Below, one piece after another: positions 6,810 to 9,068 of a stretch of 64,000 nt of DNA; the first letter of the stretch is position 1; each line of letters begins with the position of its first letter. The notes under the pieces are model-generated. The model saw only the letters and a program-made list of their open reading frames with translations, was not told the DNA's origin and did not search any database. The stretch spans positions 7,318,501 to 7,382,500 of the forward strand of contig NZ_CP128362.1 of NCBI RefSeq assembly GCF_034274695.1, given 5' to 3'. The stretch is from Chitinophaga sp. LS1. Its GTDB lineage: Bacteria > Bacteroidota > Bacteroidia > Chitinophagales > Chitinophagaceae. The translations under genes were made by a program, and so were the position numbers.

Positions 6810-7193
6810 TCAATATTTATCCATTTCTTCATTTACCAGATTTAAAAACAAATCAATTTCTATTACACTTCCCTTACCTGTGTTAAGAGGGAACAGAGAA
6901 ATTTTAAAATTCTCTCTTTGAAAAATTGGAATATCAAATTTTAAAAAATCGTCCATACTTACTGAATTAACTTTACAATCAGCATACTCAACCTCAGCGA
7001 AAAGATCTGCAAATTCCTTAAATGGCCAGATTGGCACTATTATATTACTAAATTCGTCATTTAATAAAACAAGCTTTTTATCTCTTTCAATGAACCAAAC
7101 AACACCCAAATCTACAATTCGCTTAATTGTGTATTCAAGACGAGTATTGGCATCTTGGTTAATCATTGAGTTAATTTCCTTTTCATTTATCAT
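6810..7193 (-). CDS. DUF2750 family protein, candidate Rhs immunity protein
   Basis: The 127 residues match the DUF2750 pattern: an N-terminal helix with NTRLEYTIKRIVDLGVVWF, a central IIVPIWPFKEFADLFAE, then SVSMDDFLKFDIP and FPLNTGKGSVIEI. No biochemical role is established for the family that I can state. Context suggests an immunity protein. It lies on the same strand as, and directly downstream of, the Rhs tip at 8534-9068; only the IS3-family element and about 20 bases separate them. Removing the IS on paper puts the Rhs stop 11 bases before this ATG. The natural promoter has probably been cut off by the IS. Confidence 0.75.
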   Translation of the reverse strand: MINEKEINSMINQDANTRLEYTIKRIVDLGVVWFIERDKKLVLLNDEFSNIIVPIWPFKEFADLFAEVEYADCKVNSVSMDDFLKFDIPIFQRENFKISLFPLNTGKGSVIEIDLFLNLVNEEMDKY

Positions 7194-7273
7194 GGTAAAT
7201 ATATTTATTGACTATAATACTCCCCTAAAAACGGACAGTAAGTTTAAGTGGAAAAACATCTTAAATTTACAAT

Positions 7274-7600
7274 ATGAACAAGGGAAGAAGAAAGTTCAAT
7301 GCAGCCTTTAAAGCGAAAGTAGCTATCGAAGCCTTAAAAGAACAGATGACATTGGCCGAGCTGGCAGAAAAGTATGATATACATCCTACTCAGATAACGG
7401 AGTGGAAGAAGCAACTACTATCAGGGTCAGAGGATGTGTTTGACCAGGGTAAGAAGGCAGGTGCAGATGCATCAGATCACCAGGAAGAAAAAGACGAACT
7501 ATATAAGCAAATCGGTCAACTCAAGGTAGAGGTCGACTGGTTGAAAAAAAAATCTGAACAGGCATTTGGGAAGAACTGGAAGGATGGCTTTAGTAAGTAA
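7274..7600 (+). CDS. IS3-family transposase OrfA (HTH protein)
   Basis: This 108-residue DNA-binding subunit has a helix-turn-helix near residues 20-50 (LAELAEKYDIHPTQITEWKKQ) followed by a leucine-rich coiled coil (about 75-98, ELYKQIGQLKVEVDWLKKK) for multimerisation. It recognises the IS ends. The end overlaps the start region of orfB in another frame, as is usual for IS3 elements. Confidence 0.9.
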   Translation: MNKGRRKFNAAFKAKVAIEALKEQMTLAELAEKYDIHPTQITEWKKQLLSGSEDVFDQGKKAGADASDHQEEKDELYKQIGQLKVEVDWLKKKSEQAFGKNWKDGFSK

Positions 7601-8519
7601 GGATGACAATAAGCTCAGTATTGTTCGTCAGTGTCAGTTGCTGGAAGTATCGCGAAGCAGCCATTACCATGAGCCCAAAGGAGAAAGCAAACAGAACCTG
7701 GCCTTGATGGAGCAGATAGACCGTATGCATTTGGAACATCCCTATTTTGGGGCAGAGCGCATGGCAAAACATCTAAGTACACCAGAAGTACAGGTTAATG
7801 TGAAGCGAATAAGGCGATTGATGCGGGAAATGGATATTTCGGCCATATATCCGGTCCCTAATACAAGTGAGGCATGCAAGTGGCACAAAACATATCCTTA
7901 CCTGCTTCGGAACCTGAAAATTGATCGGAATAATATGGTTTGGAGTATGGATATCACTTATATTCCAATGCCGAAGGGTTTTATGTACCTGTGTGCGATT
8001 ATAGACTGGAATAGCCGCTATCTGTTATCCTGGACACTCAGCAATACCATGACAGTGGAATTTTGTCTGGAAGCGCTTGAAAAAGCTATTTCTATTTATG
8101 GGGCACCAGAGATCTTAAATACGGATCAGGGCAGCCAGTTTACAAGCGAAGGATTTACAACAACAGTATTAGGTGCTGAGATTCGCCTAAGCATGGATGG
8201 AATAGGACGAGCCACTGACAATATCGCAATCGAGAGATTTTGGCGTAGTATCAAGTATGAGAATATCTATCTCAATGCTTATGATAGTACACTGGATTTA
8301 TACAAGGGAATTCACAGATATGTGGAATTCTACAACTGGGAACGAAAGCATCAGGGCCTGGAATATAAGACTCCTGCTGAGGTTTATGGAGCAGCTGATA
8401 AGTTATCCACATATTCACAGCTATCCACAAAAAGAAAAAAAGAACCAAAAAAAGAAAAAGTTTATAGTAGTAGTAATAGATTTGATTCTTTAATTAATAA
8501 CCCACCTATTGCTGTCTAA
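7584..8519 (+). CDS. IS3-family transposase OrfB (DDE integrase)
   Basis: The 311-residue catalytic subunit has an HTH_21-like region first (about 40-100), then an rve integrase core. The DDE residues are visible in WSMDITYIP, NTDQGSQFT and AIERFWRSIKYE, with the DD(35)E-type spacing expected. I chose ATG 7584; a TTG at 7566 would extend it by six residues. The orfB frame is +1 relative to orfA, so expression could be by re-initiation or by a frameshift. The 3' end of the gene runs into the right inverted repeat. Confidence 0.9.
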   Translation: MALVSKDDNKLSIVRQCQLLEVSRSSHYHEPKGESKQNLALMEQIDRMHLEHPYFGAERMAKHLSTPEVQVNVKRIRRLMREMDISAIYPVPNTSEACKWHKTYPYLLRNLKIDRNNMVWSMDITYIPMPKGFMYLCAIIDWNSRYLLSWTLSNTMTVEFCLEALEKAISIYGAPEILNTDQGSQFTSEGFTTTVLGAEIRLSMDGIGRATDNIAIERFWRSIKYENIYLNAYDSTLDLYKGIHRYVEFYNWERKHQGLEYKTPAEVYGAADKLSTYSQLSTKRKKEPKKEKVYSSSNRFDSLINNPPIAV

Positions 8520-8533
8520 TAAATGGGGAGTAT

Positions 8534-9068
8534 CTAAGACTTCTTCTATAGTCTCTTTCTACTTGGTGCTGAGTTTTATGTAAATCAATATCTTGAACCT
8601 TAGAATGATCTATTGCATCTTTAATTTTGTCCCCAAAAACCGCTAATGTTCCAACTACACCCAGCGAAGTTAAACCTGCGCCTATAGATTCTATTACACC
8701 TTCAACAACCGGAATAGGAACGGGGCCAATCTGGCCTATTACACCCGGACCAACAGGTTCATCACCTAGAAAATCGCTAAATCTAACAGGATTATCATAG
8801 TTCGAAGCATAGGGGCTCCATGCTTCCATATCGTCTACCTTAGGATCTATTTGTCCCCATCTACCTGTCTGCGGATCTAATGTAAGATAAAAAGCTTCAA
8901 ATTGGTCGAGGTCAAAATCATCGTCAAATTCAATTCCATTATACTTCTTTTATTTTCCGGGTACAATTGCCCTTTTAAGGCTTTGCTGCTAATCCCCGCC
9001 ATCGTCAGCCCAAATGGGTAATAGTGAGTTTCTTCTAACAATGGTCCACTATTATGAGATATAACTAA
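8534..9068 (-). pseudogene. Rhs/YD-repeat C-terminal tip B, interrupted by IS3 element
   Basis: Read on the minus strand, this begins with the Rhs core signature NSGPLLEETHYYPFGLTM, then YPENK, GRWGQIDPK and the tip junction SPYASNYDNPVRFSDFLGDEP, followed by about 75 residues of variable tail. A one-base loss in an A-rich run near 8948 breaks the frame between the YPEN and YNG motifs. The tail is cut by the IS3 right end at 8533. No full-length Rhs gene is in the window, so this is a displaced tip. The variable tail has a hydrophobic stretch (about VVEGVIESIGAGLTSLGVVG) but no toxin fold I recognise. Confidence 0.8.

Follow-up and report, generated by a model that had tools for sequence, protein, structure and literature searches.

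The DNA analysed here is a 64,000-nucleotide stretch of a Chitinophaga-like genome (Chitinophaga sp. LS1, contig NZ_CP128362.1), referred to below as the window, in which a gene of the DUF2750 (Imm16) family lies near an orphan Rhs tip, here called tip B, with an insertion sequence (IS) between them. We conclude that this segment is very probably an orphan Rhs toxin-immunity cassette, of the Ntox8/Imm16 type, that had decayed before an IS3-type element hit it. On the minus strand, the orphan Rhs tip (from about 9068 to 8542) comes first, followed by the IS3-type element and the DUF2750 gene (6810-7193). The tip B frame is interrupted by the element and reads into it, which gives the false end RRSLRYSPFIRQQ. 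The cassette and the element contain the following features, with coordinates given in the window.

6810..7193, minus strand: DUF2750 (Imm16) putative immunity gene, 127 amino acids (aa), open; PF11042
7210..7213, no strand: left copy of the target-site duplication gact, from the overlap between the two blastn matches to the natural empty site
7214..8537, plus strand: IS3-type insertion sequence of 1,324 bp, aligned with copies in its own genome and absent at this site in G343
7274..7600, plus strand: IS orfA, HTH_Tnp_1 (PF01527, 41.3 bits)
7566..8519, plus strand: IS orfB, rve integrase core (PF00665, 79.1 bits)
8506..8829, minus strand: present tip B reading frame entering the IS (false end)
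8538..8541, no strand: right copy of the target-site duplication gact, from the same overlap
8542..8610, minus strand: putative C-terminal Ntox8 stub with LHxxxH, the earlier part of the domain gone; from a profile of Ntox8 tails and alignment
8611..9068, minus strand: orphan Rhs core end and linker, with a frameshift within about 8949-8988 (tblastn)

With tip B as the query against 79 genomes of the genus, we identified a genome of the same species, G343, in which the tip is identical to that of the window over 97 residues. Contig L050 of this genome is a natural empty site, with no element between the Rhs tip and the DUF2750 gene. In blastn comparisons, window positions 1-7213 corresponded to L050 1421-8633 (99.65% identity) and positions 8538-15909 to L050 8630-16001 (99.47% identity), with nothing between the two blocks beyond the 4 bases, gact, that they share (window 7210-7213 and 8538-8541). 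The duplication is therefore 4 bp long and the element spans 7214-8537 (1,324 bp). Its copies in the same genome aligned over query positions 1-1324, one of them identical and eight at 83% identity, of which six were 1,324 bp and two 1,323 bp long. The insertion took place at the last sense codons of the tip, 20 bases upstream of the DUF2750 start, and removed almost no tip sequence; the 527 bases of the tip stretch that were compared are identical in the window and G343, and there are 0 differences in the 384 bases of the DUF2750 gene. In L050, the uninterrupted tip B frame ends in RRSQ-stop, 11 bases before the DUF2750 start, so that the gene is located directly downstream of the toxin tail.

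An earlier note on this DNA, which removed the element on paper, had claimed that an IS interrupts an Rhs tip next to DUF2750 and that the tip would then stop 11 bases before the DUF2750 start, and the natural empty site bears out both statements. The limits it gave for the element (7215-8533, with a duplication of cta) are replaced by those above, and the restored frame end that it predicted, RRSLSQ-stop, differs from the one read in L050. The element contains an orfA (HTH_Tnp_1) that overlaps orfB (rve), its termini are similar inverted ends as compared by eye only, and it is flanked by the 4-bp direct repeat. We take it to belong to the IS3 family, as the earlier note did; no notable difference from IS3-family insertion sequences was seen.

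The association of DUF2750 with Ntox8 has been in print since 2012 and is not new here. Zhang et al. (2012, Biol Direct 7:18; PMC3482391) equate Imm16 with DUF2750 and give as its partner Ntox8, a predicted RNase that is carried by Rhs proteins and has HxR and HxxxH motifs; they also describe how the replacement of tips leaves behind strings of immunity genes. The cassette and its relatives are alike to this pair in the Rhs carrier, in the Ntox8 tail of intact relatives and in the position of DUF2750 directly downstream. The window differs in that only the HxxxH end of the toxin is left, the tip is frameshifted, and the IS parts the stub from the immunity gene.

The DUF2750 protein (PF11042, 61.7 bits against a Pfam cut-off of 27) is well supported, on comparative sequence grounds, as an Rhs immunity protein, because uninterrupted relatives carry the Ntox8-DUF2750 order. 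In 6 other genomes (G339, G336, G301, G323, G356 and G161), the tail ends 6 to 24 nt before a DUF2750 gene or its remnant. A full Ntox8 domain ends the Rhs frames in G336 (1413 aa), G301 (660 aa) and G323 (552 aa), the last 2 of which are cut by contig ends, and the gaps to DUF2750 are 6, 7 and 24 nt. A profile search of the genus identified 5 Ntox8 places in 5 of the 79 genomes, all followed within 6 to 24 nt by DUF2750, one of these being a remnant. Four of the places had contributed to the profile after DUF2750 had led to them, and G339, the fifth, was known from searches with both the tip and DUF2750. As all 5 were known beforehand, this count says no more than that the search brought up no additional Ntox8 lacking DUF2750.

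The scan of named genomes relied on a single Ntox8 pattern and was independent of DUF2750; the record titles of the scanned loci include Bacteroidota, Proteobacteria, Planctomycetota and others. DUF2750 was located downstream on the same strand at 34 of the 35 Ntox8 loci, and at 30 of 31 when 4 genomes seen before (G301, G323, G161 and G356) were left out; L160 was the sole locus of the 35 without it. The distance from the toxin stop to the start of the DUF2750 profile match was at most 120 nt in 30 of the 34 cases and 168 to 169 nt in 2, while in the remaining 2 the toxin frame was broken and DUF2750 began 10 and 16 nt after the Ntox8 match. Three of the 35 loci are on one chromosome, CP067379.1, and at 2 of these DUF2750 is in 2 pieces. 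Apart from this, few genomes carry DUF2750 (10 of 294 in the family sample and 13 of 395 in the phylum sample), and chance therefore does not explain the pairing.

A resident gene without any immunity role, placed beside Rhs debris by chance, is a very improbable account of the window's DUF2750. Many DUF2750 genes were indeed found with neither an Rhs core nor Ntox8 near them, but the order of an Ntox8 end followed by DUF2750 recurs in the 6 genomes and at the 34 scanned loci, and the window's copy groups with several that are linked to Rhs or Ntox8. In a DUF2750 tree of 38 rows, 36 of which were labelled by context, it fell within an 11-row clade with support of 96/98. This clade contained 3 Ntox8-adjacent rows, 4 rows near Rhs or an array, 2 with neither in their surroundings and 2 of unknown context, so that 7 rows, the window's copy counted, are linked to Rhs or Ntox8.

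The tail of tip B is best read, from profile and alignment, as the end of Ntox8 (PF15545). Pfam called Ntox8 (cut-off 25) in the tails of G301 (64.0 bits), G356 (54.5), G336 (42.7), G323 (33.5) and G161 (28.1), the last being a piece of a degraded tip that covers profile positions 28-70 only. In the alignment of these 5 relatives, HxxxH is present in all, whereas the other motif reads HxR in G301, G336 and G161, HxH in G323 and YxR in G356. Against a profile of 88 positions built from 5 Ntox8 tails (profile A2), the G343 form of tip B scored 17.2 bits, compared to 3.6 bits for the best of 2000 shuffles, with a match to positions 64-86 only. Over its final 25 residues, the tip aligns with the C-terminal Ntox8 end including the LHxxxH motif; tip B thus keeps HxxxH, and the part that bears HxR is gone. 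G339 provides an intermediate, a further decayed copy that matches both the stub and Ntox8 at the same end: its remnant scored 64% over 25 aa against the tip B stub and 17.7 bits against Ntox8 (below the cut-off of 25; E 0.0042), and a DUF2750 remnant (53% identity across 53 aa) begins 9 nt beyond it.

We give hardly any credence to the idea that this short tail is a small toxin in its own right, complete and of a kind not yet known. In the empty-site genome the tail does read through to its stop codon, and Pfam gives it no match, but it aligns with the Ntox8 end and has the same partner gene downstream; furthermore, the frame upstream is broken, which makes delivery within an Rhs protein unlikely.

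When the Rhs core of G336 (TIGR03696, 37.2 bits) was compared with tip B by tblastn, it matched 2 pieces in different frames, at about 50% and 72% identity, both in L050 and in L127. An Rhs-associated core end is thus present in tip B, though broken by a frameshift; the 98-aa tip B frame itself gave no NCBIfam match. Since the core is split across frames in both genomes, the frameshift is older than the IS insertion. Alignment with the tails of G301, G336 and G323 revealed that the tip B tail after the core is far shorter, and consists of part of the linker followed by only the last part of the domain. The empty-site genome is likewise frameshifted and lacks most of the toxin domain, with about 25 residues kept. 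Judged by its sequence, the toxin was already dead before the IS arrived. An intact Rhs toxin and immunity unit broken by the IS, as the earlier note had proposed, is accordingly extremely improbable: it agrees with the position of the tip stop in the uninterrupted genome, 11 bases ahead of DUF2750, but L050 already contradicts it, since it carries the same frameshift and a tail just as short, with the front of Ntox8 missing, and the insertion alters the last codons only. The order of events, with loss of the toxin and frameshift first and the IS later in this strain, is a new local detail.

Displaced (orphan) Rhs tips may be accompanied by an immunity gene. The window is alike to these in its arrangement of core end, tail and immunity gene and in lacking a full-length Rhs gene next to them, and it holds 2 such tips; it differs in that the toxin part of tip B has decayed and was then separated by the IS.

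Several observations weigh against the interpretation as an Ntox8/Imm16 cassette. The Ntox8 link of the stub rests on 23 residues and one intermediate; tip B gave no Pfam match even at E 10, and hence none at the 25-bit level for Ntox8, and the Ntox8 profile search of the genus gave no match in the window's own genome. Among the 395 genomes of the phylum sample, none yielded Ntox8, and no Rhs core was found within 13 and 11 kb around the Ntox8 tails with DUF2750 in G356 and G339, respectively. In the tree, 25 of the 36 labelled rows had no Rhs core or Ntox8 found near them, and the Ntox8-adjacent label alone was not clustered (5 changes, a value as low in 115 of 500 shuffles); the tree therefore does not show that the pairing arose only once. 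Imm16 is also listed beside Tox-LD-peptidase by Zhang et al. (2012, PMC3482391). Finally, in the available portions of the literature searched for DUF2750, Imm16 and Ntox8, no experiment on the Ntox8/DUF2750 pair was found, and other papers mention DUF2750 only in passing.

Taken as a decayed Ntox8/Imm16 cassette, the segment would originally have consisted of an Rhs core end, a linker and an Ntox8 toxin tail, with DUF2750 (Imm16) directly downstream. In both same-species genomes examined, loss of most of Ntox8 together with the frameshift has left only a dead stub, next to which the immunity gene is still open. In the window's strain, though not in G343, the IS3-type element later entered the final sense codons of this stub and duplicated 4 bp. 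In intact relatives, the Rhs shell would deliver the C-terminal Ntox8 domain, and DUF2750 would neutralise it in the producer and its kin. The sequences themselves show the empty site, the decay, the stub's homology and the pairing of the genes in relatives; toxicity of Ntox8, the RNase activity predicted by Zhang et al. (2012) and neutralisation through binding by DUF2750 are inferred as likely, and the orphan DUF2750 gene may continue to protect.

In the genus, DUF2750 was identified at 20 places in 14 of the 79 genomes. Six directly follow Ntox8 or its stub, as does the window's copy behind the IS; 2 more are in the G356 array, 4 (one in G336, 3 in G323) share a 12-kb stretch with Rhs pieces, and for 7 neither Rhs core nor Ntox8 was found. 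This array of like immunity genes consists of 3 DUF2750 genes in a row after the Ntox8 tail in Chitinophaga sp. CF118 (L123 5974-7514; G356, L159). Among 9 DUF2750 contexts of the family sample (14 kb each, one of 11.4 kb), Rhs was found in one, L015. These context searches covered Rhs cores and Ntox8, with other toxin types not searched, and 11 of the 25 tree rows with none near were judged by eye on flanks of 1.5 kb. The 3 context labels together were clustered on the tree (7 changes, with 0 of 200 shuffles as low). It was also noted that in L056-L058 and L062, from 4 genomes of one family, DUF2750 lies 6 to 71 nt downstream of what appears by eye to be an Fe-S oxidoreductase-like gene, a resident, conserved context unlike that of immunity genes.

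The earlier note had argued that this DUF2750 is an Rhs immunity protein, had pointed to relatives for an uninterrupted Rhs gene followed directly by DUF2750, and had named DUF2750 genes without toxin association as evidence that would speak against it. Uninterrupted Rhs frames that end in a full Ntox8 and are directly followed by DUF2750 do occur in 3 genomes of the genus, and the argument holds for this copy. However, many other members were without an association in the searches for Rhs and Ntox8, and the immunity role therefore does not extend to the whole family. It is conceivable, if on balance doubtful, that the DUF2750 family is the older one: in much of Bacteroidota its members would sit next to housekeeping genes as residents with a role other than immunity, and the Ntox8-linked Imm16 copies would have been recruited from among them.

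The window also contains a second orphan Rhs tip and other features outside the cassette.

11790..12353, minus strand: core end of the second orphan Rhs tip (tip A); tblastn, TIGR03696 43.4 bits

The frame of tip A (11380-12482, minus strand) carries this TIGR03696 match, and its core end corresponds to L050 11882-12445 and L127 14291-14854 (tblastn). Two small genes after tip A, at 10862-11188 and 10218-10658 on the minus strand, had no Pfam or NCBIfam match and could be tip A immunity genes. The product of the former and that of L051 5645-5980, located after the G339 DUF2750 remnant, are each about 110 aa long, probably have a membrane helix at the N terminus and appear similar by eye, and they may share an immunity family. 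Transposase-like fragments flank the cassette on either side: one at 6373-6921 on the plus strand, with a weak match to the IS4-type NF033592 (36 bits, cut-off 115), and one at about 9240-9680 on the plus strand, judged by eye only.

With a natural empty site and an order of decay, a suggestive insertion site has become a tested case, and the scan of named genomes gives independent support to the Ntox8/DUF2750 pairing across several phyla. The tree also carries a warning: since 25 of its 36 labelled rows had neither Rhs core nor Ntox8 near, the name DUF2750 alone does not imply immunity and is no evidence of a toxin system. If DUF2750 is indeed an older resident family, the immunity label would mislead for many members in Bacteroidota, and orphan copies such as that in the window may persist as stand-alone protection after the death of the toxin.
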